Assembly: GCF_006483445.1 (NCBI RefSeq)
Contig: NZ_PPPT01000212.1
Span: 1-64,000, forward strand
DNA from: Bradyrhizobium guangdongense
GTDB lineage: Bacteria > Pseudomonadota > Alphaproteobacteria > Rhizobiales > Xanthobacteraceae
Length of the DNA: 64,000 bases
Reading direction: 5' to 3'
Shown here: positions 1 to 14,233 of the stretch, in pieces
Numbering within the stretch: position 1 is the first letter of the stretch
Layout of the letters: every line of letters starts with the position of its first letter
The notes under the pieces: model-generated
The model's input: the letters and a program-made list of their open reading frames with translations, nothing else
Told to the model about the DNA's origin: nothing
Database searches by the model: none
Position numbers and translations under genes: made by a program

Positions 1-870
1 GCCGGCGGCATGCTCGCGCCGTATTGCGAGGCGGAGATCGCCGAACCCATCATCAGCCGCCTGGGCTGCCGTTCGCTCGACCTCTGGCGGCGCGAGCTGC
101 CGGATACGCCTTTCAACGGCTCGCTCGTCGTGGCCCATGCCCGCGAGCGCAACGATTTTGAGCGCTTTGCGAAGATGACGCAGGGCCACCAGCGCCTCGA
201 TGCGGCCGGCCTCGCAAAGCTCGAACCCTCGCTGGAGGGCCGTTTTCGCGATGCGCTGTTCTTCGCAGCCGAAGGCCATGTCGAGCCGCGTCGCGTACTG
301 CCAAAACTTCACGACCGCATCCGCGCCGCCGGCGGCACCATCAAGTTCGGCAGCGATGTGACCGCGAAGGATCTTGCAAACCTTCATCCTAAAAGCATCG
401 TGATCGATTGCCGCGGCCTGTCCGCGCGCGACGAGCAGCCCGAGCTTCGCGGCGTCAAGGGCGAGATGATCCTGATCGAGACGAACGAGGTGCAGCTCGC
501 GCGCCCCGTGCGTCTCATTCATCCGCGCTGGCCGCTCTACGTGATCCCGCGCGAGGACAATCTGTTCATGCTGGGCGCGACCTCGATCGAAGCCGAGGAC
601 ACCGGCGTCAGCGTCCGCTCAGCGCTGGAGCTGTTGGGCGCCGCCTACACGGTGCACCCCGCCTTCGGCGAGGCCCGCATCGTCGAATTCGGCTCGGGCC
701 TTCGCCCCGCCTTCCCCGACAACCTTCCGCGCATTGGCATAAGCGGCCAGACGATCAACGTGAACGGTCTCTACCGCCATGGCTTCCTGATCGCGCCGGC
801 GCTCGCCGAGCTGACGCTGGCTTACGTTGAGCGCGGCCAAATCGACAATGAGGTGATGCAATGCGCGTGA
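1..870 (+). CDS. thiO: Glycine oxidase ThiO, 5' partial
   Basis: FAD-dependent glycine oxidase that makes the iminoglycine (dehydroglycine) used in thiazole synthesis. The reading frame is open from base 1, and the first visible residues (AGGMLAPYCEAE) match the conserved stretch just after the N-terminal FAD motif of ThiO. The true start and the GxGxxG motif therefore lie upstream of the window. About 289 residues are visible, against roughly 330-370 for the family. The C-terminal FAD-contacting part is present (GLYRHGFLIAPALAE). The stop overlaps the start of thiS by 10 bp, which indicates translational coupling. Any TPP riboswitch for the operon would lie upstream and cannot be seen. Confidence 0.9.
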   Translation, partial: AGGMLAPYCEAEIAEPIISRLGCRSLDLWRRELPDTPFNGSLVVAHARERNDFERFAKMTQGHQRLDAAGLAKLEPSLEGRFRDALFFAAEGHVEPRRVLPKLHDRIRAAGGTIKFGSDVTAKDLANLHPKSIVIDCRGLSARDEQPELRGVKGEMILIETNEVQLARPVRLIHPRWPLYVIPREDNLFMLGATSIEAEDTGVSVRSALELLGAAYTVHPAFGEARIVEFGSGLRPAFPDNLPRIGISGQTINVNGLYRHGFLIAPALAELTLAYVERGQIDNEVMQCA

Positions 871-1058
871 TCGTCAACGGCGAGCAACGCGAGATCAATG
901 CGGCCAGCGTCGGCGCGCTGCTGAGCGAGCTCGACTACGAAGGCACGCATTTCGCGATCGCCGTGAATTACGACGTGGTGCCGAAAAGCCGCTGGGCCGA
1001 GACGGCGCTGAAGGCCGGCGACGAGATCGAGATCATCACGCCGCGGCAGGGAGGGTGA
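861..1058 (+). CDS. thiS: Sulfur carrier protein ThiS
   Basis: A 65-residue ubiquitin-fold sulfur carrier. Its C-terminal Gly-Gly (ending PRQGG) is adenylated and then thiocarboxylated, and it donates sulfur to ThiG. The length and the GG end are diagnostic. The ATG lies inside the end of thiO. A 170-bp gap with a palindromic repeat separates it from thiG, so thiO-thiS form one tight block and thiG-thiE another. Confidence 0.95.
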   Translation: MRVIVNGEQREINAASVGALLSELDYEGTHFAIAVNYDVVPKSRWAETALKAGDEIEIITPRQGG

Positions 1059-1090
1059 GCAAGTTGAAACGTGCCGCCACAAATTCCGCC

Positions 1091-1192
1091 GTCATCCTGA
1101 GGTGCGAGCCGCACTTCGGCTCGCCTCGAAGGATGGCCGCACGCGCGGCTGTCATCCTTCGAGGCGCGCAAGTGCGCGCACCTCAGGATGAC
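1091..1192. repeat. Palindromic intergenic repeat, family A (ATCCTGAGGT ends)
   Basis: About 102 bp of imperfect inverted repeat. The left arm begins GTCATCCTGAGGTGCG and the right arm ends CGCACCTCAGGATGAC, with secondary internal hairpins. It fills the thiS-thiG gap. Related copies lie at 2630-2727 and 7676-7818. As RNA it would fold into a long hairpin inside the thi transcript. Confidence 0.9.
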
Positions 1193-1227
1193 GGTCCTCG
1201 CAAGTTGCCAGCAAGGAATTTGAAGAC

Positions 1228-2010
1228 ATGGTGACCTTCTACAACAAAACCTTCCCCTCGCGCCTCCTCATCGGCAGCGCGCTTTATCCCTCGCCCGCGA
1301 TCATGCAGCAGGCGATCCGCGCCTCGGGCGCGTCCATCGTCACGGTATCGCTGCGGCGCGAGTCCGCCGGCGGCAAGACCGGCGACGCGTTCTGGAACCT
1401 GATCCGCGAGCTCGAGGTAACAGTGCTGCCGAACACCGCCGGCTGCCGCAGCGTGCGCGAAGCCGTGACCACGGCAAAACTCGCGCGCGAATTGTTCGGC
1501 ACGCCGTGGATCAAGCTCGAGGTGATCGCCGACAACGACACGCTGCAGCCCGACGTCGTCGGCCTGGTCGAAGCCGCCACGATCCTGATCAAGGACGGTT
1601 TTGAGGTCTTCCCCTATTGCACCGAGGATCTCTCGGTCGCGAACCGCCTGGTCGATGCCGGCTGCAAGGTCGTGATGCCCTGGGCCGCTCCGATCGGCAG
1701 CGCCAAAGGCATCACCAACCGCGACGCGCTAAAACTGCTGCGCGAACGCCTGCCCGATATCACGCTGGTGGTCGATGCCGGTCTCGGCGCGCCCTCGCAT
1801 GCGGCGCAGGCGCTGGAGCTCGGCTACGACGCCGTGCTGCTCAACACCGCGATCGCCAAGGCCGCCGACCCCGTCGCAATGGCCAACGCCTTCCGCCTCG
1901 GCGTCGAGGCCGGCCGCACCGCATACGAAGCCGGGCTGATGAACGCCCGCGACTTCGCCTCCCCCTCCACCCCTGTCGTTGGGACCCCGTTCTGGCATGC
2001 CGTATCCTGA
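1228..2010 (+). CDS. thiG: Thiazole synthase ThiG
   Basis: A 260-residue TIM-barrel enzyme. It forms thiazole phosphate from 1-deoxyxylulose 5-phosphate, dehydroglycine and the ThiS thiocarboxylate. The Schiff-base lysine is visible at residue 96 in [13 protein letters not shown]-terminal phosphate-binding stretches ([30 protein letters not shown]) are also typical. The start ATG follows AAGGAATTTGAAGAC. The end overlaps the thiE start by 14 bp, so the two are probably translationally coupled. Confidence 0.95.
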
Positions 2011-2605
2011 TCCCTTCTACGCCGTCGTCGACAGTGTCGACTGGGTCGCGCGCCTCGCCAAGCTCGGCGTCGGCACCATCCAGTTGCGCGCGAAAGATCT
2101 GAACGACGCCGAGGCGCTGCAAATCGTTACCGACGCGCTCGCGGCGGTGAAGGGCACGCAGGCCAAGGTCGTCGTCAACGACTATTGGCGCGCGGCGATC
2201 GTCGCCGGCGCAAAACACCTGCATCTCGGCCAGGAGGATCTGGTCGATGCGGATTTGAAGGCCATCCGCGAAGCCGGCCTGACGCTCGGCATCTCCACCC
2301 ACGATGATGCGGAGCTTGCCACCGCGCTCGCCGCAAAACCCGACTACGTCGCGCTCGGCCCGATCTTCTTCACCACGCTGAAGTCGATGCGCTTCGCCCC
2401 GCAGGGCATTCCAAAGATCACGGAATGGAAGAAGCGGATCGGCAACATCCCGCTGGTCGCGATCGGCGGCATCAAGTTCGAGCACGCCCCCGAGATCTTT
2501 GCCGCCGGCGCCGATTCCATCGCCGTCGTCTCCGACGTCACCCAGAACGCCGACCCCGACGCCCGCGTGCGGCAATGGCTCGGCCTCGCCAAGGAGGCCG
2601 CGTGA
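1997..2605 (+). CDS. thiE: Thiamine phosphate synthase ThiE
   Basis: Couples HMP-pyrophosphate with thiazole phosphate to give thiamine phosphate. About 202 residues, a TIM barrel with the family signatures TIQLRAKD near the N-terminus, [22 protein letters not shown] and [11 protein letters not shown]. The ATG at 1997, inside the end of thiG, is preferred over an upstream in-frame TTG at 1979 because it gives the usual length and the common overlap. It is the fourth gene of the thi operon. Confidence 0.92.
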
Positions 2606-2629
2606 TGCCGCTCGCACTCTGTTCAACCC

Positions 2630-2727
2630 GTCACCCTGAGGTGGCCGCCTCTTCGGCGGCCCTCGAAGGGCGACGGCCCGGCTCTTTCATCCTTCGAGGC
2701 GCGCAAGAGCGCGCACCTCAGGATGAC
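2630..2727. repeat. Palindromic intergenic repeat, family A
   Basis: A second copy of the family at 1091-1192, filling the thiE-thiC gap. The arms are GTCACCCTGAGGTGGC and GCGCACCTCAGGATGAC, and there is an internal GGCCGCCTCTTCGGCGGCC hairpin. No TPP-riboswitch-like sequence was recognised in this gap, so thiC is probably read from the upstream promoter through the repeat. Confidence 0.88.
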
Positions 2728-2760
2728 GAGATCGAAATTGCACCCAGGAATTAAGAGTAA

Positions 2761-4671
<1,911 letters not shown>

Positions 4672-4809
4672 GGGAGCTCTGCGCCTTACAGCCTCCTCAC
4701 CAAAGCCTTGCATTTGGCGGCCAAGCTTGCCAGCCGACCCATTGCAACCTATAATTGATCGTGCAAGAATGCACCTCTTGCTTCACCGTTGTCTTCGAGC
4801 TTTCATAAC

Positions 4810-5082
4810 ATGAAAGCCGCGATCGTTTTGAGAAGCGAAGGTTGGTTACCTGAGAAGGTGAAGCAGGAGGTTCAGGTGAGCATACAGATTTTTTTGCAGT
4901 TCGCCGGATTCATTATCATTATCGGACTGCTCTTCGTTATCTGGGCAGAACTACGCCGGCTGAGAATGACCATCGAAGTGTTACTAGACAGCACGAGAGA
5001 GAACTCCCGATCGCTCGTCGCAACAATTCTGGAAATTAACGCAAGGAGCTCCGACAAGAGCAACAAATACGAATTGCGATAG
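4810..5082 (+). CDS. Small single-TM protein, unknown function
   Basis: A protein of 90 residues starting at the ATG (MKAAIVLRSEGW); an in-frame TTG at 4789 would add seven residues. One hydrophobic segment (FAGFIIIIGLLFVIWAEL, about residues 32-49) is followed by a charged, probably coiled-coil tail. Base composition is clearly AT-richer than thiC. It ends 9 bp before the ATG of the downstream ATPase, so the two are likely one transcript. No family was recognised. It may anchor or sense for the ATPase, which is inference. Confidence 0.6.
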   Translation: MKAAIVLRSEGWLPEKVKQEVQVSIQIFLQFAGFIIIIGLLFVIWAELRRLRMTIEVLLDSTRENSRSLVATILEINARSSDKSNKYELR

Positions 5083-5091
5083 AGATGCCTC

Positions 5092-6255
5092 ATGCCCGCA
5101 AACGAATTCGAATTATTGAATCAAAGCATTATCAATTTGAGGCAAGGCAAGCCAATTGACTTCGACAAATACGGCCTCATCAGAAGAGGCGGAGGCGAGG
5201 CGATCGAAGACCTTTGTCAAAATGTGGCAAGCCACACACGAGGGGGGCCTCAAGGCGAAACGTATTCGACTTGGTTGTTAGCATATTACGGTGGCGGAAA
5301 AAGTCAGACGCTATCCGACGTCAGCCGCATTCTCCGGGAGCAGCAGTACGGCTCCTTCAAGGCTTTCGTAACTCGCATCGATCTCAATAATTCAAGAAAT
5401 ATCACTCAGTCAGGCTTCCAAATATCTCTCTTCGAAGACGCGTCGTTCATATCATCAGCGCACGCTGAGAGCGTGATTGACATAACCAAGACTGTGCTGG
5501 GGCATAAGAAGGCGGAAAGCGCTGCGGTGGTCGGCGTTGATATTGCGACCACTGCACTCAACATCAAAATTCCTGGAGCTGGCACTCTCGTGAAGGAGGC
5601 CCTTGGAAAGGCGCGCATCTGGTACGTAGGTCGAAGAGCACACATTCAAAAGAAGATAGATGCACTGGGATTGCCAAGTGCCGAAGCCAGGGAATTGATG
5701 ATACGCTGGGTCAGCTATTCTTTGTCGCCAAGTCGCGATAGTTTGGGTGCGCTCAACGAATACGTCGATCGCTTGTCGAATAATGGAGCGCTTTTTTCCG
5801 CGCTAAAGCACATCCTGAAAATCTCAAACTACGGATCGGTAGTTATCCTGATTGATCAAGCCGAAAAGCTTGTCGACAACCGGTTGCTGACGGATCATTT
5901 AATGAGTATCCGCGACTCGGATGAAGTCAGATTGAATCTTTTCTTCGTCTTCGCAGGCACCGATAGGATCGACGAACTCAGATCTGAGCAAGAGTACGGT
6001 GGCTTTGCTCGACGATTTCTCGATGCCAACAGATGCGAAACTCGCTCCACGCCCCTAAGTGCTCCAAATATTGCCTCGACGCCCGACGATGACCTTATTC
6101 GCATCCGAGACGTTTTTGCCCGGATCCGGCAAGATCATCCAGGATTGCCGATACCGAGATTGACCGATGAGCGGATTCGCGCAGTCAGGGAAGATTTGAA
6201 CACGCGGCAGCCGGTTTCGTGGGCGGCTTTTTGGAAATCGGTCCTCGCTACGTAA
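5092..6255 (+). CDS. P-loop ATPase, resembles BREX BrxC/BrxD-type AAA+ proteins
   Basis: A 387-residue protein. An N-terminal helix with the pattern IINLRQGKP is followed by a Walker A-like AYYGGGKSQT (K70, S71; the first glycine of the loop is replaced by Ala). A Walker B-like VVILIDQAEK lies near D255/E258, a sensor-like LFFVFAGTDR near 285-292, and a GGFARRF stretch that could hold an arginine finger near 307. This order, especially the YGxGKS loop and the FAGT strand, resembles the BREX ATP-binding protein families (DUF2791 type), but the protein is short and no other BREX gene is visible. AT-rich composition suggests transfer. Cytoplasmic; substrate unknown. Confidence 0.65.
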   Translation: MPANEFELLNQSIINLRQGKPIDFDKYGLIRRGGGEAIEDLCQNVASHTRGGPQGETYSTWLLAYYGGGKSQTLSDVSRILREQQYGSFKAFVTRIDLNNSRNITQSGFQISLFEDASFISSAHAESVIDITKTVLGHKKAESAAVVGVDIATTALNIKIPGAGTLVKEALGKARIWYVGRRAHIQKKIDALGLPSAEARELMIRWVSYSLSPSRDSLGALNEYVDRLSNNGALFSALKHILKISNYGSVVILIDQAEKLVDNRLLTDHLMSIRDSDEVRLNLFFVFAGTDRIDELRSEQEYGGFARRFLDANRCETRSTPLSAPNIASTPDDDLIRIRDVFARIRQDHPGLPIPRLTDERIRAVREDLNTRQPVSWAAFWKSVLAT

Positions 6256-6269
6256 GCTCACAAGTCGCT

Positions 6270-6340
6270 TAGCCCGGATGAGCAGAGCGACATGCGGGAT
6301 TGACAGTTGTCCCGCATGTCGCTCCGCTCATGCGGGCCAC
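6270..6340. repeat. REP pair, family B (TAGCCCGGATGAGC type)
   Basis: Two REP-like units in opposite orientation: TAGCCCGGATGAGCAGAGCG, and the reverse unit ending CGCTCCGCTCATGCGGGC. The core matches the REPs flanking the RAYT gene at 10.65 kb. It lies in the gap after the ATPase gene. The long stem could also act as a bidirectional transcription barrier. Confidence 0.85.
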
Positions 6341-6405
6341 AGCTCCAGCATCCCCTCCGAAAGCAAACGCCAGCCGAGAGCTCGGTCTATTGCCGAGACG
6401 TCGTT

Positions 6406-6891
6406 TCAAGAGACCGTTTTCTTCAACAGCGGCTGATCGGCCTTGACGTCGGATGAGCATTCCGCTTCCCAGGGGAAACGCCGATTGACGTCTTGCCAGA
6501 TGACCTGGAGACAGGGGAATGCGCGCCGCGATTTCCGGTAGAACCAGATCGCCGTACCGAGATATTCGGGGTAGGCCCCGAACGGCACCTGCCAGAAACC
6601 GAGCTTGTAGCCGTCCTCCAGCATGTCGTCGGAGATATCGCCATCGACGAACTTATGTCCCGCCGCAACGTGATCGCGGATAAGGTTGATGATAGCCTGC
6701 GCGTTCTCGGCGCTCTGACCGAAGATGATGAGTTCGGGGTGGCCATAGGTCAGAAACAAGCCGATTGAAAAAGCAAACGGCGGATTTGCATCGGGTATGC
6801 CCACGATGTGGCAGCCGTAGTTGCGCACATTGCGCAAAATGATCTTGTCGGCTTCGTGTTCAGGCTCAGGCCACTCGAACTGGTCTTGCAT
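6406..6891 (-). CDS. DUF4262 domain protein
   Basis: A protein of 161 residues from ATG 6891; a GTG two codons upstream is also possible. The family pattern is visible: an N-terminal NVRNYGCHIVGI, then FAFSIGLFLTYGHPELIIFG and a later DGYKLGFWQVPFGAYPEYLG. DUF4262 proteins are small, cytoplasmic and of unknown function. It is oppositely oriented to both neighbours and stands alone. Confidence 0.85.
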   Translation of the reverse strand: MQDQFEWPEPEHEADKIILRNVRNYGCHIVGIPDANPPFAFSIGLFLTYGHPELIIFGQSAENAQAIINLIRDHVAAGHKFVDGDISDDMLEDGYKLGFWQVPFGAYPEYLGTAIWFYRKSRRAFPCLQVIWQDVNRRFPWEAECSSDVKADQPLLKKTVS

Positions 6892-6972
6892 CGTCACCTC
6901 AATAAACCCGGTGGGCAGGTCTTATTCGCTTTGGCTCACCCTACAATTGCAACGTACAAGATGGTAGCAAGC

Positions 6973-7046
6973 GTAAGCTCGGATGAGCGCAGCGACATCC
7001 GGGATCCTTGCGTCCCGCATATCGCTCCGCTCATGCGGGCTACAGC
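6973..7046. repeat. REP pair, family B
   Basis: Inverted REP units (CTCGGATGAGCGCAGCGACA and TCGCTCCGCTCATGCGGGCT) directly ahead of the glycosylase gene. The same core flanks the RAYT gene at 10654-11211. An ATG at 7033 lies inside this repeat and complicates start assignment of the next gene. Confidence 0.85.
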
Positions 7047-7059
7047 CCGGATCATTGAC

Positions 7060-7581
7060 GTGCAAGACGCCGCCCCTCACCGCCTCCCCGACCAGCTCCG
7101 CAAAAACCTGCGCGTCGTCTTCGTCGGCACCGCGGCCTCGACGCGCTCGGCCGAACTCGGGCACTACTACGCCCATCCCGGCAACCGCTTCTGGCGCGCG
7201 CTGCACGAGGCCGGCATCACGCCGCGGCGCTATCAGCCAAGCGAGTTCGCCTCACTGCTCGAGCTCGGGATCGGCTTCACGGATCTCTCAAAATCCGGCG
7301 CCGGGATGGATCATGAGATCGACAGAAAATCGTTCGATCTTGCAGGTTTTTGCACCAAAATCGACGCGTTTCGACCGAAAACGGTGGCGTTCACGAGCAA
7401 GAATGCGGCGAGCTTGTTCTACGGCAAGCCGTCGAGCGCGATCGCGTTGGGGCGGCAGCCGGTGGACGGGAAATTTCCGGACGTGTTCGTGCTGTCATCG
7501 CCGTCAGGTGCGGCGTCGGGGCACTGGACGCTGGAGCCGTGGCGGGAGTTGGCGGATTGGATCAATTCGACGCACGCGTAG
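7060..7581 (+). CDS. Mug/TDG-like mismatch-specific DNA glycosylase
   Basis: A uracil-DNA-glycosylase superfamily protein of about 173 residues that should remove mispaired U or related bases. Visible motifs are VVFVGTAASTRSAELGHYYA with HPGNRFWRAL (active-site and pyrimidine-pocket region), GIGFTDLSK, and a C-terminal VFVLSSPSGAASGHW matching the leucine/insertion-loop motif. The GTG at 7060 is chosen because the frame upstream runs through a REP element; ATG 7033 lies within that REP and is the alternative. The TAG stop is the first three bases of another REP. Confidence 0.8.
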   Translation: MQDAAPHRLPDQLRKNLRVVFVGTAASTRSAELGHYYAHPGNRFWRALHEAGITPRRYQPSEFASLLELGIGFTDLSKSGAGMDHEIDRKSFDLAGFCTKIDAFRPKTVAFTSKNAASLFYGKPSSAIALGRQPVDGKFPDVFVLSSPSGAASGHWTLEPWRELADWINSTHA

Positions 7582-7657
7582 CCCGGATGGAGCGCAGCGC
7601 AATCCGGGAATCCCGTCGCGGAGAGACCCGGATTTCGCTGCGCTCCATCCGGGCTAC
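7579..7657. repeat. REP pair, family B, overlapping the glycosylase stop codon
   Basis: Starts TAGCCCGGATGGAGCGCAGC and ends with the reverse unit TGCGCTCCATCCGGGCTA. The initial TAG is the stop codon of the glycosylase gene. The arms are complementary over more than 20 bp, so the transcript would end in a strong hairpin. Confidence 0.88.
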
Positions 7658-7675
7658 GACCACAACCCCATCGCC

Positions 7676-7818
7676 GTCACCCTGAGGTGGCCGCCTCTTC
7701 GGCGGCCCTCGAAGGGCGACGGCCCGGCTGGTAGCCTCGCAGAAGCATTGGGGCCGTTCATCCTTCGAAGCTCCCCATGCGACGCGTTGCATCGCATGGT
7801 TCGCACCTCAGGATGACG
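7676..7818. repeat. Palindromic intergenic repeat, family A
   Basis: The third and longest copy of the family seen in the thi operon. It begins GTCACCCTGAGGTGGCC and ends GTTCGCACCTCAGGATGAC. Relative to the other copies it carries an extra stretch of about 45 bp in the middle. It sits directly next to a family B REP, forming a mosaic. Confidence 0.85.
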
Positions 7819-7848
7819 GGATTGGCGTCATTGCGCGCGGCAACGCCC

Positions 7849-8283
7849 CTACCGCATCGTGATCGCAAGCCCGCTGAGATCCGCATTCGCCATCAACCCG
7901 ACCTGCTGCCCCGTCAGTTCCAGCACCGCGCCCTTCTGGTTGGTGAGCACGATGGCGCGGGCGCCACGGCCGACTGCGAGGCCGGCACCGGCGGCGCCGT
8001 AGACGCCGGCGACGTCGGAGGGGCGGTTGATGTTGGAGACGCGGCCGCGCAGCACGGTCTTGGAGCCGCCGAACACGAGGCCGTAGTCGAGGCCGCCGGT
8101 GGAGAGCGAATAGGAGCGGCCGCGGAAGTTGAGCACGCCGCCGCCGCCCGAGCCGCCGATGATCCAGCCCGCCTTGTAGATCGTCAGCGTCACGAAGCCG
8201 GAATCGGCCTGCGCCGTCGTGGCGAGGCCGACAACAGCGGCAAAGGCAATGAACGCGGCGCGAAAGCGCGATGCGAAATTCAT
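7849..8283 (-). CDS. Secreted glycine-rich protein, unknown function
   Basis: A protein of 144 residues from ATG 8283, which has GGAGA six bases upstream; in-frame upstream starts lack this spacing. A signal peptide is clear (FRAAFIAFAAVVGLATTAQA), so it is exported. The mature part is rich in Gly and beta-type strands (GWIIGGSGGGGVLNFRG, LDYGLVFGGSKTVLRGRV). It faintly recalls SYLF/DUF1134 lipid-binding proteins, but the match is not firm. Confidence 0.7.
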   Translation of the reverse strand: MNFASRFRAAFIAFAAVVGLATTAQADSGFVTLTIYKAGWIIGGSGGGGVLNFRGRSYSLSTGGLDYGLVFGGSKTVLRGRVSNINRPSDVAGVYGAAGAGLAVGRGARAIVLTNQKGAVLELTGQQVGLMANADLSGLAITMR

Positions 8284-8430
8284 GGGCATTCTCCGGGGAA
8301 CGGATGTCTTATGGAACGATGTCTTGGGCAAGATTCGAATCAGACGCGCCGAGTCTATCCAGGGGATCGCGGCGGGACCATGTTCGGGGGAAGGGAGGAG
8401 CGACGACCGGCTCCATTATGCGACTCTACA

Positions 8431-8520
8431 CCTGATTTGCCCGACGGGTCAAGAGAATTTCGAAAAATACGAAGTTCGATCACGGCGCCGTGATCTACTG
8501 TGCATGGGGTTGTTTTCGAC
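8431..8520 (-). repeat. Dispersed ~90-bp repeat, family C, copy 1
   Basis: On the minus strand it runs from GTCGAAAACAACCCCATGCA to TTGACCCGTCGGGCAAATCA, with a central GATCACGGCGCCGTGATC palindrome. Copies 2 and 3 are at 28781-28870 and 58572-58660. The minus-strand TTGACC (8447-8452) is followed 18 bp on by TAGAGT, and the unit points toward the secreted-protein gene at 7849-8283, so it could supply its promoter. It fills much of the 340-bp gap between 8283 and 8624. Confidence 0.85.
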
Positions 8521-8623
8521 CTTGTTTTTTCGGACAGGCGCCGGCGGCGGTTCCAACCACGGTTGCAAGTGCCCGACGGGCAGCTAGGCTGCGGCCCACG
8601 CAGTCCGTCCCCCGAGGTGCCCC

Positions 8624-9007
8624 ATGCCGATCCAGCATTTTGCTCCGCCGCCGAACGTCAAGTCGCCGCCGCTGTCCTTCGCCACCCGTGTCGGCGATCT
8701 CGTCTTCGTGTCGGGCATTCCCGGCTTCGACGCCAACGGCGCGCTGCCGGACGGTTTCGACGCGCAGTTCGGCAATGTCGTCGTCAACATCAAGCGCATC
8801 CTGGACCAGGCCGGCGCCACCTTCCGCAACCTCGTCAAGGTCAACGTGCTCCTGACGCGCGCGAGCGACGTGCCGGCGATGAACGCGATGTATGCCGGCG
8901 TGTTCGGCCCGCCGCCCTACCCGGCGCGCACCACCTGCGTGGTGCAGGCGCTGCCCGATCCGAAAATGCTGATCGAGATCGAGGCGGTGGCATCGCTTGC
9001 GAAGTGA
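8624..9007 (+). CDS. RidA/YjgF family protein
   Basis: A protein of 127 residues. RidA proteins are small trimeric enzymes that hydrolyse reactive enamine/imine intermediates or act on related amides. Characteristic stretches are GDLVFVSGIPGFDANG, a central helix NIKRILDQAGATFRNLVKVNV, and YPARTTCVVQALPDPKMLIEIEAVA, which contains the conserved Arg and Glu region. It is divergent from the secreted protein before it. The exact subfamily and substrate cannot be told. Confidence 0.9.
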   Translation: MPIQHFAPPPNVKSPPLSFATRVGDLVFVSGIPGFDANGALPDGFDAQFGNVVVNIKRILDQAGATFRNLVKVNVLLTRASDVPAMNAMYAGVFGPPPYPARTTCVVQALPDPKMLIEIEAVASLAK

Positions 9008-9121
9008 GCGATGTTTCCGCGTGTTGCCGGCCTGACATCTGCGTGAACGATAACGGGCCCGGCTTGCCAGGGCGGCGCATTTGCCGCACCAGTCTTGCTT
9101 TATCGCTGTCAGGAGACATTC

Positions 9122-9379
9122 ATGCGTCGCGTCCTCACCCTCTCTGCCGCTGCCGGCATCGCTGCCTCGGCGCTCGCCACCCCCGCCTTCGCAAAAGTCG
9201 GCTATTACGTGATCCGCTGGGACAACACCGGCATCTGCCAGATCTGGAACGAGGACCTGCGCTACAAGCCGGTGCAGTGGCCCTCGACCTACAAGGTCGT
9301 CAGCAAGCCGTTCCCGACCTTCGACGCCGCCAATGCCGTGCAGCTCAAATATCGCGCCGAGCGCCGCTGCACGCTCTGA
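9122..9379 (+). CDS. Small secreted protein, paralogue A
   Basis: A protein of 85 residues with a clean signal peptide (cleavage after TPAFA). The mature part carries GYYVIRWDNTGICQIWNED, closely similar to the next gene at 9577. ATG 9122 is preferred over upstream in-frame starts because it begins the signal peptide. No known family; two cysteines in the mature part may form a disulfide. A strong terminator follows. Confidence 0.75.
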   Translation: MRRVLTLSAAAGIAASALATPAFAKVGYYVIRWDNTGICQIWNEDLRYKPVQWPSTYKVVSKPFPTFDAANAVQLKYRAERRCTL

Positions 9380-9405
9380 GACGGCCCGGCCAAGGGCCTG
9401 AATTT

Positions 9406-9448
9406 GCGGGGGGCGGATGGCGGAAAACGTCATCCGCCCCCGCTTTTT
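9406..9448 (+). terminator. Rho-independent terminator
   Basis: A GC-rich stem (GCGGGGGGCGGATG pairing with CATCCGCCCCCGC) with a short loop followed by TTTTT. It lies 27 bp after the stop of the 9122-9379 gene and separates the two tandem paralogues. Confidence 0.9.
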
Positions 9449-9576
9449 GTTGAACCTGTTCCAGCCGCCGGCCTACTCAATTGTTGTCCGGGGCGCATGT
9501 TCCCACGCTCCCCGCACCACCCCTCCCCGAGCATTGCCGGGAGGCGCATCACGACTTTCATTTGAGGAGCTCATCC

Positions 9577-9828
9577 ATGCGTCGTTTCTCCAAGCTGTGC
9601 GTTGCCGCAGGACTTGCCGCTGCCGCCTTCGTTGCGACCAGCCCGGCCCAGGCCGGCTATCATCTGATCCGCTGGCAGGACTCCGGTCTGTGCCAGATCT
9701 GGGACGAGAGCATTCCGACCACGCCATGGCCCGCCGGCTCGCACCGCGCGAGCGCGACGGTCGCGACCTTCCTCGACGCGCTGGCCCTGAAGGATCACGC
9801 GCTCAAGACCAAGGCTTGTACCTGGTAG
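9577..9828 (+). CDS. Small secreted protein, paralogue B
   Basis: A protein of 83 residues with a signal peptide ending near SPAQAG. The motif GYHLIRWQDSGLCQIWDES repeats that of the preceding gene, showing a tandem duplication. ATG 9577 has GAGGAG about 8 bp upstream. The stop codon lies inside the first unit of a 16-bp tandem repeat. Function unknown; periplasmic or extracellular. Confidence 0.75.
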   Translation: MRRFSKLCVAAGLAAAAFVATSPAQAGYHLIRWQDSGLCQIWDESIPTTPWPAGSHRASATVATFLDALALKDHALKTKACTW

Positions 9829-9864
9829 GTCTTGTACCTGGTAGGTTTTGCACCTGGTAAGATT
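9817..9864. repeat. Three 16-bp tandem repeats over a stop codon
   Basis: Units TGTACCTGGTAGGTCT, TGTACCTGGTAGGTTT and TGCACCTGGTAAGATT lie head to tail. The TAG in the first unit ends the preceding gene. A separate 12-bp-stem hairpin (GAAGCGGGCAAG/CTTGCCCGCTTC) follows at 9881-9918. Confidence 0.9.
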
Positions 9865-9954
9865 TCGATCGGCGGATCGAGAAGCGGGCAAGGGCGCGCG
9901 AGCGTTCTTGCCCGCTTCCGTTTCCGGCTCCTACATGAGTTTCGGGACGACGAG

Positions 9955-10590
9955 ATGCGCATCATGACATCAAGGTTTGCCGCCATCGCACTAGCGCTCG
10001 GGGCATTGGTCACATCCGCGCAGGCGCAGCAGTCGTTCCGCGTGATCTCGCCGATCTTCGGGCAGCTCGTCACCTTCTCGATGCCGTCGAATTTCACCGC
10101 GGCCTTCGAGAATACCAAGGGCGGCCACTACATCCGCGAGGCCGTGCTGAAGGGCGAGAGCGCGCAAGCCTGGACGCAGATGATCACGGTGACCGGCGAG
10201 AAGGGCGTATCAGGCAATCCCGGCCTCACGCCGGAAAAATTCGCCGGCAATTTCGCCGGCGGCTTCAAGGCCGCCTGTCCCGACAGCTTTGGCGCGAAGG
10301 GGCTCGGCGCCACCAAATTCGGCAGCTTCGATGCCTTCATCGCGGTGATCGGCTGCGGCAGCGTCGACAGCGGTCCGGCCAAGCACAGCGAGACCGCGCT
10401 GCTCGTCACCATGAAGGGCACGGCCGACTACTACACGATCCAATGGGCCGAGCGCGGCGCGGCGAGCGACAAGCCCAAGGTCGACGACGAAAAATGGACG
10501 GCGCGCCTGCGCGAGCTGCGCCCGATCGATCTCTGCCCAATCGTGCCAGGCGAGAAGGCGCCCTATCCGAGCTGCGTCAACAAGAGCTGA
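9955..10590 (+). CDS. Secreted protein of unknown function
   Basis: A protein of about 211 residues with a signal peptide (SRFAAIALALGALVTSAQAQ). ATG 9955 or the ATG at 9964 could serve; both lie just ahead of the signal peptide, whereas the open frame further upstream runs through repeat DNA. The mature part has four cysteines and no recognised domain. It ends 26 bp before a REP, just ahead of the RAYT element. Confidence 0.7.
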   Translation: MRIMTSRFAAIALALGALVTSAQAQQSFRVISPIFGQLVTFSMPSNFTAAFENTKGGHYIREAVLKGESAQAWTQMITVTGEKGVSGNPGLTPEKFAGNFAGGFKAACPDSFGAKGLGATKFGSFDAFIAVIGCGSVDSGPAKHSETALLVTMKGTADYYTIQWAERGAASDKPKVDDEKWTARLRELRPIDLCPIVPGEKAPYPSCVNKS

Positions 10591-10615
10591 GCGCGCGACC
10601 CGAATGAGCGAAGCG

Positions 10616-11254
10616 TAGCCCGGATGAGCGAAGCGACATCCGGGATTCCTTGCTCACATCGAAATCGCCTGATGCATATCGGCGCGCTCTCCGAACGAGC
10701 CCGCACCATCACTCACCACTCCCGCCCAATCGTCCGGAAGCAGGCCGGCCCGCACATACCGGTGAAAAGAGGAATACGGCCAATCGCTGACTTGCCTGAC
10801 GTGACCATGCTTGACCGGATTGAAATGGATGTAGTCGACATGGCGCGCATAGTCGTTCTCGTCGCGAACCGTGTGTTCCCAGTAACGCCGTTGCCACAAC
10901 GCCAGCTCCCCATTGCTCCGGCGCGGCAGGTCGACGCCCGCGTCGAGGAGCGCGCTACTGAAGTGACCCTTGATCCGGCGCCAGCGCCCCGCGAAATCGG
11001 AGTCATCCGCAGGAAGGGTCATAATGGTGTGCAGGTGATCCGGGAGGATCGCAATTGCGTCGATCTCGAACGGACGCTCCCGTCGTGCCGATCGGAAAGC
11101 CTCGCGCAATTGGCTGGCGTGCTCGACGAGCAGCCGCGAACGACGATCGGAAAGCGTCACAGTGAAGAAGTAGGTGCCGCCCTCAATGCGATTTCGTCGA
11201 TACAGAACCATCGGCCAGACCGTCCCGGATATCGCTACGCTCATCCGGGCTACA
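10616..11254. mobile_element. RAYT unit: REP-associated tyrosine transposase gene between two inverted REPs
   Basis: The left REP at 10616-10648 (TAGCCCGGATGAGCGAAGCG, then ACATCCGGGAT) and the inverted right REP at 11223-11254 (TCCCGGATATCGCTACGCTC, then ATCCGGGCTA) bracket the transposase gene at 10654-11211. This matches the published layout of RAYT/REPtron units, in which the enzyme acts on the flanking REPs. Related family B REPs occur at 6.27, 6.97 and 7.58 kb. Confidence 0.85.
10654..11211 (-). CDS. REP-associated tyrosine transposase (Y1_Tnp, RAYT)
   Basis: A 185-residue single-strand DNA nuclease/transposase of the HUH Y1 class, which cleaves REP hairpins through a covalent tyrosine link. 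The HUH motif is ILPDHLHTIMTLP (H59, H61), and the conserved C-terminal HVDYIHFNPVKHG contains Tyr127, with other tyrosines nearby. ATG 11211 (MVLYRRNRIEGG) is chosen because the frame further upstream runs into the right REP. The gene appears intact. RAYTs are usually single copy and domesticated. Confidence 0.92.
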   Translation of the reverse strand: MVLYRRNRIEGGTYFFTVTLSDRRSRLLVEHASQLREAFRSARRERPFEIDAIAILPDHLHTIMTLPADDSDFAGRWRRIKGHFSSALLDAGVDLPRRSNGELALWQRRYWEHTVRDENDYARHVDYIHFNPVKHGHVRQVSDWPYSSFHRYVRAGLLPDDWAGVVSDGAGSFGERADMHQAISM

Positions 11255-11271
11255 ATCTAGCACGGCTGTGT

Positions 11272-11760
11272 TCACGCGTCCTTATGCGCGCCGGGATGGA
11301 TCAGGATATCGCGGGCGGCGGAGAGGTCGAGGAAGGCCTGCTCGCTGCCGCCGAGGTCGGGATGCATGGTCTTGGCGAGACGGCGATAGGCCTGGTTGAT
11401 GTCGTCGCAGGTGAGCTGCACGGCGAGCGGCAGGCCAAGCGTCCTGCGCGCGCTGTCCTCCTTGCTCAGCTTCTTCGGCAGCGCGCCGCGCCGGCCGAAA
11501 CGGGGCGCGGTCAGATTATGCACAACATCGAGGACGACGGCGAGACGGCGCTGGGCGGCGACGATGATGTCGTGATCGTCGCCGTTGCTTGCCGCCTGGC
11601 GCAAAATCGGGATCGCCTGTTCGGCGGCCTGTCGGAGCGTCGGCTCGGGGCTCATGCGCGCGATCTCGGTGGCCAACCGGCCGGCCTCGTCCCAATCGAC
11701 GGAATGGGCCGTCCACAACCGTTCCAGGGCCAGCTTCCAGGATTCGATACGCTCGATCAT
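11272..11760 (-). CDS. J-domain protein with an N-terminal helical domain
   Basis: A protein of 162 residues. The C-terminal part (about 115-160) is a compact J-domain with the HPD motif at 133-135 in INQAYRRLAKTMHPDLGGS, so it should stimulate an Hsp70 partner. The N-terminal 90 residues form a predicted helical region ending LTAPRFGRRG. That region is shared with the shorter protein at 12609-12911, on the other side of the GST gene. ATG 11760 is preferred over a start six codons upstream. The client is unknown. Confidence 0.82.
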   Translation of the reverse strand: MIERIESWKLALERLWTAHSVDWDEAGRLATEIARMSPEPTLRQAAEQAIPILRQAASNGDDHDIIVAAQRRLAVVLDVVHNLTAPRFGRRGALPKKLSKEDSARRTLGLPLAVQLTCDDINQAYRRLAKTMHPDLGGSEQAFLDLSAARDILIHPGAHKDA

Positions 11761-11911
11761 CGCAGTCACATTTAGCAAGAGAGGCGACTATGCCAAGTAC
11801 GGCGTTTCAGACGTCTTAATTTCGGGTTAGCCTTTCGCGAAATTTCGACGAGAATCCGGGATCAAATTCGATCTTTCCTGCCGCTTCTTCCCAACCGACG
11901 GGGCCCCGCGC

Positions 11912-12604
11912 ATGCTCACGCTCTACTCCTATCCGACCCTGTTCGGCGTCGCCGACAACAACGGCTACGGGCTCAAGGTCTACGCCTTCCTCAAGCTCGC
12001 CGGCGTGCCGTTCAGGCACGAGCACATCTTCGACGCTTCGAAAGCGCCGCGCGGCCAGTTGCCCTACATCGTCGATGGCGACGACACCATCGGCGACAGC
12101 GAAACGATTCTGCAATACGTCACAAAGAAGTACGCGTTGACGATCGACGCCGCGCTGACGCCGGCGCAGCGCACGCAAGACCTGCTGGTCACGCGGATGC
12201 TGGACGATCTCTACTGGGTGATGTCCTATTCGCGCTGGAAGGACGAGCGCTACTGGCACGCGTTTCGCGACGCCTTGCTGCGCGAGCATCCGAGCGTCAG
12301 CGAAGAAGGCCTCGCCAAGGCCAAGGCTTTCAACGAGCAGCGCTACTATTATCAAGGCATCGGCCGCTTCGATTCCGACGCCGCGATGGCGCGTGGGCTT
12401 GCCGATCTCTCGGCCATCGCCGCGCTGATCCCTGCCGACAGCGGTTTCGTGCATGGCGACAAGCCGACCGCCGTTGATGCCGGGATCTACGGCTTCATCG
12501 CCAACATCTATTTCTACGACATCGACACGCCGCTAAAACAGTTCGTGGTCGCGCACGACAATATCGTCCGCCACTGCCGTGCCATCCACGCGATGGTCTC
12601 GTGA
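11912..12604 (+). CDS. Glutathione S-transferase family protein
   Basis: A protein of 230 residues. The N-terminal thioredoxin-like fold (MLTLYSYPTLFGV and RGQLPYIVDGDDTIGDSETI, with the cis-Pro and glutathione-binding ES/ET region) is followed by an all-helical C-terminal domain ending with DAGIYGFIANIYF. It resembles the failed-axon/metaxin-like GST branch. It is probably cytosolic, and the substrate is unknown. It sits between two minus-strand genes that share a domain. Confidence 0.85.
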   Translation: MLTLYSYPTLFGVADNNGYGLKVYAFLKLAGVPFRHEHIFDASKAPRGQLPYIVDGDDTIGDSETILQYVTKKYALTIDAALTPAQRTQDLLVTRMLDDLYWVMSYSRWKDERYWHAFRDALLREHPSVSEEGLAKAKAFNEQRYYYQGIGRFDSDAAMARGLADLSAIAALIPADSGFVHGDKPTAVDAGIYGFIANIYFYDIDTPLKQFVVAHDNIVRHCRAIHAMVS

Positions 12605-12608
12605 GGCG

Positions 12609-12911
12609 TCAATGATGCCGGATCGGTTGATCGTGGCTGCGCTTGCCGAAGCGTGGCGCGGAGAGTACGTGCAGGGCATGCTGCACGATGCCGAGCCGCT
12701 GGCGGGCGATCTCGCGCGTGCCCCGGCCGGCCGACTTCGCCGCCGCGTGGCGCAGGCTCGGCAGCACCTGAAGTGCGGCAAGCCGCAGCGGCTCGTCGTG
12801 GCTGGCGCCGGAGATATCGGCGACGATCTGTGCCATTTTGCGATAATCGGGCTCGGGCGCCGACAGGCAGCGCTCGATCTCGAGCTTCCACTGGCTGATA
12901 TGCGGGTCCAT
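12609..12911 (-). CDS. Truncated paralogue of the J-domain protein (no J-domain)
   Basis: A protein of 100 residues from ATG 12911; in-frame starts at 12920 and 12941 are possible. It shares WKLEIERCL, ADISGASHDEPLR and HVLSAPRFGKR with the N-terminal region of the protein at 11272-11760, but it ends before any J-domain. It appears to be the helical domain alone. Whether it arose by duplication and loss or the other gene by fusion cannot be told here. Confidence 0.65.
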   Translation of the reverse strand: MDPHISQWKLEIERCLSAPEPDYRKMAQIVADISGASHDEPLRLAALQVLPSLRHAAAKSAGRGTREIARQRLGIVQHALHVLSAPRFGKRSHDQPIRHH

Positions 12912-13025
12912 GCGCGTCATCCCAAACCGGAATGACAGCAACGCGCAAAGGCGGCTTGGCGTTTCCGTTGGTTCGGTTTTGAATTAGCTTGTCGACAACA
13001 TCAAACAAGACCTCGAGGAAACGCC

Positions 13026-13793
13026 ATGCCCCTGCTCGCCAACCATATTGCAGTTATCACCGGCGCGGGCTCCGGCATCGGCCGCGCGATCGCCACTGGC
13101 TACGCACGCGAGGGCGCGCAGGTAGTGCTGTACGACATCAATGGCGGCGCCGCGGCGGAAACGGCCGAAGCCATTCGCGGTAGCGGCGGCAAAGCGGAGA
13201 GCTTCGCCCTCGATGTCACCGACCGCGACGCGTGCTTCGCAGCAGCCAAGCAAGTCGCCGACAAGGTCGGCCAGGTCTCGATTCTCGTCAACAATGCCGG
13301 CATCACGCGCCGCAATGCGTTCACCGCCGAGAAGGACACCGTCGCCAAGGACTGGCAGGACATCATCGCGCTCAACCTCAACGGCGTGTTCAACATGACG
13401 CAGGCGTTCCTCGATCCCTTGCGGGCAGCCAAGGGCCGCATCGTCAATATCGGATCGATCCAGTCCTTCGTGCATCTGCGCACGCCGAGCTCGGCCGCCT
13501 ACACCACCTCCAAGCACGGCGTGCTCGGCTTCACCAAGGCGCTCGCCGCGGAACTCGGCAAGGAAGGCGTGCGCGTCAACGCGATCGGACCAGGCTTCAT
13601 CGAGACCAACATCAACGCCTCCGTGCGCGCGACCAATCCGGCGCTGGTGCAGGCTTTTGTCGATCACACCCCGCTGGGCCGCACCGGCAAGGCCGAGGAC
13701 ATCGTGGGCCCCGCGATCTTTTTGGCCTCCGACATGTCGGCCTACGTCACCGGCTCGATCGTGATGGTGGACGGCGGCTATCGCACGGTGTGA
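13026..13793 (+). CDS. Short-chain dehydrogenase/reductase
   Basis: A 255-residue Rossmann-fold NAD(P)-dependent oxidoreductase. Cofactor motif TGAGSGIGRAIA is near residue 12, followed by NNAGITR, the catalytic serine in NIGSIQS and YTTSKHG (Tyr and Lys). The C-terminal PSSAAYTTS and YVTGSIVMVDGGY are typical of classical SDRs. GAGGAAACGCC precedes the ATG. Substrate unknown; sugar or 3-hydroxyacid dehydrogenases are similar. Confidence 0.92.
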   Translation: MPLLANHIAVITGAGSGIGRAIATGYAREGAQVVLYDINGGAAAETAEAIRGSGGKAESFALDVTDRDACFAAAKQVADKVGQVSILVNNAGITRRNAFTAEKDTVAKDWQDIIALNLNGVFNMTQAFLDPLRAAKGRIVNIGSIQSFVHLRTPSSAAYTTSKHGVLGFTKALAAELGKEGVRVNAIGPGFIETNINASVRATNPALVQAFVDHTPLGRTGKAEDIVGPAIFLASDMSAYVTGSIVMVDGGYRTV

Positions 13794-13984
13794 TAGGCAT
13801 CAAGAAAATATGCATCTCGTGCCAATCGCGGCCGCACCGGGGCATTCCCAAGGTCAATTGGTGCGCTGGCCCGGAATTAACCTCTCGTTAACCGTCTTCG
13901 CCCACCGTAGTTCTACGGCTTGGGGGTCGTTTGTTCTCGATCCGCTTCCAACGATGGAAGCGGGCGTTGATCGGGAGGTTGTTG

Positions 13985-14233
13985 ATGACCACTGTCCATG
14001 TTGCTGCGCCTGACACGTTTGCGCAGTCCCTTGCTCCGAACCAGATCGTTCCGTTGCTGATCGGCTCGACCGTCGACGAGGTCGAACGCGAGCTCGTCGT
14101 GCAGACGCTCGCCCGCTGCGACGGCAACCGGACGCGCGCCGCGCGCGTGCTCGGCCTGTCCGTGCGCACGCTGCGCAACAAGATCCGGCTCTATGTCGCC
14201 GACGGCATCGACGTTCCCGCCTATCATGACTAG
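13985..14233 (+). CDS. Fis-type helix-turn-helix protein
   Basis: A protein of 82 residues from ATG 13985, with GGGAGG upstream. The C-terminal half matches the Fis/NtrC DNA-binding domain (VEREL, then NRTRAARVLGLSVRTLRNKI), as found at the end of sigma-54 regulators such as FlbD, but without the receiver or AAA+ domains. It is a likely small DNA-binding regulator. The TAG stop is formed by the first bases of the adjacent repeat. Confidence 0.8.
   Translation: MTTVHVAAPDTFAQSLAPNQIVPLLIGSTVDEVERELVVQTLARCDGNRTRAARVLGLSVRTLRNKIRLYVADGIDVPAYHD

Follow-up and report, generated by a model that had tools for sequence, protein, structure and literature searches.

The window analysed here is the first 64,000 nucleotides (64 kb) of contig NZ_PPPT01000212.1 of Bradyrhizobium guangdongense, read on the forward strand, and the subject of this work is a pair of plus-strand genes at positions 4810-6255. 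The first gene (4810-5082) encodes a small membrane protein of 90 residues from its ATG, or 97 residues from a TTG at 4789, and the second (5092-6255), which begins after a spacing of 9 bp, encodes a 387-residue ATPase that we read as a divergent ORC/BrxD-like AAA+ protein. Upstream of the pair is thiC, with its stop codon at 4671 (Pfam E 5e-184), and the downstream neighbor is a DUF4262 gene on the minus strand (6406-6897; Pfam E 5e-35). The guanine plus cytosine (GC) content is 0.476 in the small gene and 0.508 in the ATPase gene, compared with 0.637 in the window, and their GC at third codon positions (GC3) is 0.626 and 0.559, respectively. The eight other nearby genes measured have a GC content of 0.618-0.672 and a GC3 of 0.816-0.893, which shows that the island exists and that its composition is foreign; the DUF4262 gene is intermediate (GC 0.567, GC3 0.732). 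An earlier note on this DNA had described an AT-rich two-gene insert encoding a protein with one transmembrane (TM) segment and a 387-residue P-loop protein 9 bp later; both frames and both proteins are present as described, and a composition equal to that of the flanking core genes is excluded. The note had also placed the insert between thiC and a pair of repetitive extragenic palindromic (REP) sequences. There are indeed thiC upstream and two palindromes, but the second palindrome is located beyond the DUF4262 gene. Our best explanation, tentative when its parts are taken jointly, is that the pair is an acquired operon of foreign composition in the interval between thiC and a gene of the uracil-DNA glycosylase (UDG) family (called mug below), in which a BrxD-like ATP-dependent switch would work with a membrane protein held back by its leader.

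The ATPase has a variant Walker A motif, AYYGGGKS, at residues 64-71 (5281-5304), a Walker B strand, VILIDQAE, at residues 251-258 (5842-5865), an FAGT sensor strand at residues 287-290 and a candidate arginine finger, R307-R308 (6010-6015), all encoded on the plus strand. The motifs AYYGGGKS, ILIDQAE and FAGT were thus quoted correctly by the earlier note, the second being at residues 252-258. The note had called ILIDQAE Walker B-like; it is the Walker B motif itself, and the note had missed the replacement of its catalytic Glu by Gln. BrxC_BrxD-family proteins from relatives of the host served as the comparison set, and 11 BrxD/SngB rows plus the ATPase made up a 12-row alignment. Among the relatives, one protein matches BrxD (L050; PADLOC 7e-200), and two neighboring proteins match SngB (PADLOC E 2e-175) and SngA (6e-42) of Shango. 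The identity of the ATPase to the 11 rows is 17-23%, and all 12 rows agree in 15 columns, including L16, G19, G33, Y66-G67-x-G69-K70, W206, D255, G289-T290, R308 and P374. It departs from all 11 relatives at A64, where they have Gly, and at Q256, where its D255-Q256 stands for Asp-Glu. It also has V375 in the sensor-2 column, where the 11 rows have Arg, although the alignment is gapped and uncertain there. At its C-terminus, the protein is about 45-50 residues shorter than the BrxD-like proteins of four relatives.

Searches of Pfam, NCBIfam, PHROG and PADLOC gave no match above chance for either protein, nor did a sequence search of the PDB for the ATPase; the best Pfam hint for the ATPase was AAA_22 at E 0.035. 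The ATPase was compared by hhalign with a profile of the 11 BrxD/SngB rows and with a second profile of eight viral sequences. The controls were taken from 20 P-loop loci of the same genome (L065 to L084). In each locus, the longest frame containing the Walker A pattern GxxxxGK[ST] was picked mechanically; L084 offered none, which left 19 controls, and the frame of L082 (GAIIIGKT), at least, may be the wrong one. In the end-to-end alignment with the first profile, the ATPase scored 26.8 over 341 columns. The best control, L072, was just below this value (25.3) but over 98 columns, the next one reached 14.5, and all 100 shuffles remained at or below 11.3. With the second profile, the ATPase scored 29.9 over 352 columns, followed by L072 (23.1, 100 columns) and L073 (22.9, 342 columns), and the shuffles reached a maximum of 11.0. 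When the Walker A part was left out, the ATPase still aligned in register over 184 columns with a score of 31.2, the maximum of 200 shuffles being 25.9. Only L072 (38.6) and L071 (28.1) among the 19 controls came near or above it in this test; because they matched the Walker A region of the profile (columns 28-77 and 52-86), they were read as second P-loops and set aside. Local alignment with the first profile gave 38.9 over 277 columns (maximum of 200 shuffles, 25.1), and we rejected this local score by itself as evidence of kinship because ordinary P-loop proteins attain it through Walker A.

Judged from its sequence, the ATPase is a remote relative of BrxC and BrxD, "like" them and not a member of their family, and the best reading is an ORC/Cdc6-type AAA+ protein that has diverged very far and, of the proteins compared, comes nearest to BrxD/SngB. 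The resemblance to BrxC/BrxD proposed in the earlier note is upheld by the end-to-end profile test with its controls, although neither the BrxC_BrxD family of Pfam nor PADLOC recognizes the protein. As a separate observation, another ATPase frame of the host, with 1054 residues (G000:C91:13259-13555; L008, L075), is above the BrxC_BrxD cut-off of Pfam (24.1 versus 22.2 bits) through a match of only 58 profile positions (24-81), and it advises caution in using that model alone.

One structure model, of low confidence, agrees with an ORC-type fold. The single-sequence AlphaFold2 model of the ATPase was of no use (pLDDT 39.7), and a model built from the ATPase and eight viral relatives had low confidence as well (pLDDT 47, pTM 0.42). 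The solved folds nearest to the latter were of the ORC/Cdc6 type, with ORC2 of A. pernix at Z 12.7 and a root-mean-square deviation (rmsd) of 3.5 over 172 residues. RdrA (Z 9.4) and BrxC (Z 8.9, rmsd 4.2, 171 residues) were also near, and TnsC (Z 8.7) and Avs4 (Z 8.6) were in a range tied with BrxC. Foldseek gave no PDB match for the model at E<=0.001. Since BrxD-like rows guided the model, the likeness of fold is not an independent proof. The BrxC ATPase and BrxD are classified as ORC/Cdc6-type proteins in the cited part of PMC12839542, and homology to ORC4 is noted in passages of PMC11580459.

The same look-up bears on a further explanation, in which the ATPase would be another ORC/STAND-type protein, such as a TnsC/TniB-like transposition or plasmid protein or a STAND regulator of the LuxR/cyclase kind. 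The look-up puts ORC over BrxC and ties TnsC and Avs4 with BrxC, two host ATPase frames (L073 and L075) score 22.9 and 20.9 over their full length on the viral profile, and a Y1_Tnp transposase gene (10654-11244, minus strand; Pfam E 1e-7) is found about 4.4 kb downstream of the pair. However, L073 and L075 reach only 6.9 and 4.4 on the first profile, where the ATPase has 26.8, and the transposase, which lies between REP copies, belongs to the IS200-like Y1 type. Such transposases are not known to rely on a TnsC-like ATPase. We regard this explanation as unlikely.

The replaced residues are of importance for the possible activity of the ATPase. It retains the Walker A Lys and the Walker B Asp, so that ATP binding is likely, and the change of the Walker B Glu to Gln means that ATP hydrolysis is expected to be poor, as in a switch or sensor and not a motor. 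According to the portion of PMC13326643 on BrxC, ATP is held by residues that include the Walker A Lys, the Walker B Glu and the sensor-2 Arg, together with two arginine-finger residues contributed by the partner. The E-to-Q mutant E269Q showed lower hydrolysis and a larger share of ATP-dependent dimers, and E268Q, its counterpart in a second BrxC, kept phage restriction and lost methylation. The Walker B mutant E255A of another BrxC was dominant-negative, as given in the cited passages of PMC11580459. By analogy with these proteins, the ATPase should bind ATP, pair up and rarely reset.

On the other hand, the same changes could belong to a remnant of a larger BREX/Shango-like module, of which the ATPase and a small gene alone would survive and in which the altered Walker A, Walker B and sensor-2 positions and the short C-terminus are signs of decay. 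All 11 aligned relatives differ from the ATPase at A64, Q256 and V375, its chain stops some 45-50 residues early, and inspection by eye of the listed open reading frames found no helicase, methylase or TerB gene beside it. PglZ, one of the proteins expected in a BREX system, had 0 matches in the window's own genome (93% complete), and to this extent the statement of the earlier note that no other BREX gene is present holds. Decay is the main rival because no BREX or Shango partner is seen beside the ATPase, PglZ is unmatched and three catalytic positions are altered. However, the 387-codon frame is intact, has its start codon and is close to its neighbor, and at 50% GC such a frame would be very unlikely by chance. 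In addition, the E-to-Q change is conservative, altering function without breaking the frame. We consider decay somewhat unlikely.

Among known proteins, the closest likeness is to BrxD, the stand-alone ORC/Cdc6 AAA+ ATPase of type-2 BREX. The ATPase shares with it the stand-alone size class, the order and spacing of the motifs, the Y-G-x-G-K of Walker A, the Walker B Asp, the G-T of the sensor-1 strand, the arginine finger and the conserved Trp in the middle region. It differs from BrxD at the positions of the first Walker A Gly, the Walker B Glu and the sensor-2 Arg (A64, Q256 and V375) and in its shorter C-terminus, and no BrxHI-like helicase is seen beside it. SngB of Shango belongs to the same ATPase family, and one of the rows from the host's relatives (L005) is SngB. 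Shango contains a TerB-like protein and a helicase, as described in part of PMC10250203, whereas the adjacent partner here is a one-TM protein. SngA/TerB and the SngC helicase are not adjacent to the ATPase, its neighbors being thiC, the TM gene and the DUF4262 gene, and PADLOC gave no match for the three proteins tested. The iSTAND proteins of BREX, according to the cited part of PMC12839542, have eroded Walker motifs and no C-terminal bundle, are fast-evolving and have been proposed as sensors. Eroded catalytic motifs, a shortened C-terminus and fast divergence are shared by the ATPase with BrxB/iSTAND; the iSTAND proteins have lost the Walker motifs, whereas those of the ATPase are partly eroded (G to A, E to Q) with Lys and Asp kept, and here no PglZ accompanies it in the genome. 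In these respects, the ATPase appears to lie between active BrxD and iSTAND.

Two observations on this family were made in passing. Relatives of the host carry the Shango genes SngA and SngB (shown by PADLOC for L005, 260-2811), and similar ATPases occur at L004, L006 and L007. On the viral contig IMGVR_UViG_2667527406_000003 (L092, 1749-9743), a UvrD-like protein and a 295-residue unknown protein are encoded ahead of two BrxD/SngB-like ATPases in tandem (PADLOC E 6e-27 and 7e-13), and a BrxHI-like helicase (2e-65) comes after them. This BREX/Shango-like module of viral origin thus apparently has two ATPases. BLASTP of our ATPase against these two gave short motif matches only.

The small protein has one hydrophobic stretch, with a Kyte-Doolittle mean of up to 2.65 over 19 residues. 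No clear Shine-Dalgarno (SD) sequence was seen by eye before the ATG at 4810, and an in-frame GTG at 4876 is preceded by AGGAGG with a 5-nucleotide spacer. This GTG is probably the better start of the gene, and the 68-residue product begins with the membrane helix. Three Arg residues come right after the helix, yet the net charge over the first 15 residues after it is 0, so that the orientation is uncertain. Upstream of the gene, a sigma-70-like promoter, TTGCCA-17-TATAAT, is located at 4727-4755 on the plus strand; it has 11 of 12 consensus bases and is the only site with at least 11 of 12 (spacer 16-18) on either strand of the window. The predicted leader contains an inverted repeat (I2) of two plus-strand arms of 18 nucleotides, 89% complementary: the 5' arm (4770-4787) is the anti-SD, and the 3' arm (4857-4874) holds the AGGAGG at 4865-4870.

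The fold of the 130-nucleotide leader had a z-score of -5.15, and none of 200 shuffles was as stable. The predicted probability that the SD is unpaired was 0.001 for an RNA starting near 4762 and 0.825 for one starting at 4790. As a control, we folded the 25 starts of the window that combine a strong SD with a frame of 60 codons or more, every leader being cut 114 nucleotides ahead of its start codon and not at an established transcription start. After removal of the first 28 nucleotides, the leader of GTG 4876 opened from 0.001 to 0.811, the largest gain of the 25 starts; of the other two hidden starts, one rose from 0.001 to 0.229 and one stayed closed. It suggests that the leader hairpin, as predicted, masks the SD of the small gene in a manner resembling toxin leaders. 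An RNA thermometer was considered for this leader and is unlikely, as the model keeps the SD closed at 60-70 C. Rfam gave no gathering-level match in 1-14000, and the one row in 4650-4950 (E 4.3) was irrelevant.

The mRNAs of TisB, DinQ and ZorO have a 5' structure that keeps ribosomes from loading until processing removes it, the release following the loss of the first ~28-44 nucleotides; for zorO the ribosome-binding site itself is masked, and for tisB a standby site (PMC5668327, in the part cited). The leader described here is likewise predicted to open on the loss of its first 28 nucleotides. It is conceivable that the small protein acts as a type I membrane toxin under a leader RNA, with the ATPase carried along or serving as an antidote. 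The single hydrophobic helix of the small protein and its length of 68 residues from the GTG are in line with this, as is the freeing of the SD by removal of 28 nucleotides (0.001 to 0.825), which recalls tisB, dinQ and zorO. However, the transcription start and the processing are predictions, the sole promoter-like site on the minus strand has 9 of 12 consensus bases, which is at chance level, and the small protein, in contrast to these toxins, is longer, is in an operon with an ATPase and has no antitoxin RNA identified. With 68 residues (GTG) or 90 residues (ATG), it exceeds the fewer than 60 residues typical of type I toxins in the cited part of PMC5668327. The toxin explanation is of low probability.

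The ATPase was searched for in whole-genome samples of 100 relatives, 265 genomes of the genus, 397 of the order, 385 of the class and 398 of the phylum, which overlap and were not summed. It was found in its own genome alone among the relatives (1 of 100), in the genus (1 of 265) and in the class sample (1 of 385). At E<=0.01, the order sample gave three matches, namely its own and two short weak rows (L002 and L003), and the phylum sample gave two, its own and one short weak row (L097). These three rows were treated as chance, covering 58, 105 and 59 residues of the query at E 6e-4 to 6e-3. The open reading frame lists were inspected for L003 and L097, and the L003 match adjoins a DinB gene in a frame that by eye looks like an exported protein. 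Among 84,980 species genomes, two scans based on motifs returned no relative of the ATPase; such contig scans require short near-exact motifs, so a distant family could escape them. Plasmids and phages searched by tblastn gave matches only at E 4 or worse, and viral contigs gave nothing with four queries and nothing with one DNA pattern. For the small protein, its own copy and one weak match were found among 100 genomes; the latter is in a HemY protein (HemY_N E 1e-23) and was rejected as a TM similarity. The DNA of the pair had no match in plasmids or in E. coli, and the small protein had none in plasmids. The literature gave no two-gene system of such kind among the matches listed, and the word "transmembrane" does not occur in the main text of the 2026 BREX survey.

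The alternative of the earlier note, that the ATPase matches a housekeeping family, was rejected, as there is no family match and no match in 264 of the 265 genomes of the genus. The sequence names no phage target, and a host-adapted role in the cell envelope or in stress, unrelated to phages, would be compatible with an orphan protein. However, the absence from the same 264 genomes indicates that it would not be a core function, and we consider this explanation very unlikely.

The interval in which the pair is located is variable among relatives of the genus. The mug gene (UDG Pfam E 3e-15) was detected in 25 of 41 genomes, its own genome included, and eight relatives, all holding thiC and mug, were picked by hand from the 24 others. 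One interval measures about 150 bp with no gene visible (L039), and two others of about 0.4 kb (L045) and 0.7 kb (L043) are by eye unlike that of the window. The rest contain a 150-residue frame (L040), two other short genes (L038), a flavin monooxygenase-like gene (Pfam E 3e-17) with a short gene (L044), or a CBS-domain protein (L041 and L042). The presence of the pair in its own genome only, 1 of 265 in the genus, together with the variable thiC-mug spot, marks it as cargo at an often-changing place. The CBS-domain protein found at this spot in L041 (4917-6059) and L042 (2278-3420) has 380 residues and, by eye, an R-x4-H motif, RNEVMH, at its C-terminus; that of L041 also has a weak CARF-HEPN similarity (PADLOC E 0.04), and the protein is possibly a CBS-HEPN RNase.

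The REP-like palindrome has two copies, at 6271-6343 and 6976-7046, and the first directly follows the stop codon of the ATPase gene. Its arm has 21 matches in the genome, the reversed control having 0. Folded as RNA, the palindrome at 6272-6337 has -59.8 kcal/mol and a z-score of -9.3, and we infer from this fold that it may end the transcript of the pair. The DUF4262 gene, which is AT-richer than its surroundings, is between the two copies, about 700 bp apart (6271-7046). The Y1_Tnp gene is flanked by two further inverted copies of the REP motif (10599-11253). REP-associated transposases typically sit between REP copies; the gene resembles them and could account for the REP copies of the genome.

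Taken together, we favor an acquired operon in which the ATPase, resembling the stand-alone BrxD/SngB of BREX-2 and Shango, probably binds ATP, as the Walker A Lys is kept, and probably self-associates, as the arginine finger is kept. With the Walker B Gln, it would hydrolyze ATP poorly and would act as an ATP-dependent switch or sensor. Its partner would be the one-helix membrane protein, serving as effector or anchor, the tail of which would dock on the ATPase or be released by it. The leader hairpin over the ribosome-binding site would hold back translation of the membrane protein, as in some membrane toxins. Upon a trigger, the ATPase complex would change its state, and the membrane protein would then act on the membrane or anchor the response there. 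The genes, their composition, the motif changes, the profile similarity and the predicted leader fold are findings, whereas the locking on ATP, the partnership, the trigger, the action on the membrane and the defence role are what we infer from them; protection against phage or plasmid is plausible and would be the most likely role of the pair.

Several of our results weigh against this explanation. BrxC_BrxD (PF10923) was not listed for the ATPase in Pfam at E up to 10, nor were the BrxD and SngB models of PADLOC at E up to 10. HMMER scored the ATPase at 0.7 bits on the 11-row profile, a value that shuffles also attain, which counts against membership, and the first 81 residues of the ATPase alone aligned out of register (16.0). 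In local hhalign, 3 of the 19 ordinary P-loop frames outscored the ATPase on the first profile via short Walker A matches, and 7 of the 19 did so on the viral profile. The three catalytic changes and the short C-terminus could mean decay. The masked SD is not unique, since 3 of the 25 SD-bearing starts have an unpaired probability of 0.001 or less. No defence gene was identified beside the pair, and no homologue of either protein was found in the sets searched, so that neither the pairing nor the function is backed by conservation. The earlier note had named the absence of such pairing from further genomes as a refutation of its defence proposal; the present result does not confirm that proposal and does not refute it clearly.

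If the pair were merely a decayed fragment, the locus would still mark the thiC-mug interval as a variable spot in these genomes. A bolder form of the favored explanation, improbable as it stands, is a minimal immune switch, in which an ATP-locked BrxD-like AAA+ protein would be tethered to, or would restrain, a small membrane effector under a toxin-style leader. BREX-type ATPases are known from multi-gene systems. If true, the minimal switch would add a membrane-acting branch to the BREX/Shango ATPase lineage, would show that this lineage can act without a nuclease, methylase or helicase, and would offer a small system for a direct test of ATP locking.

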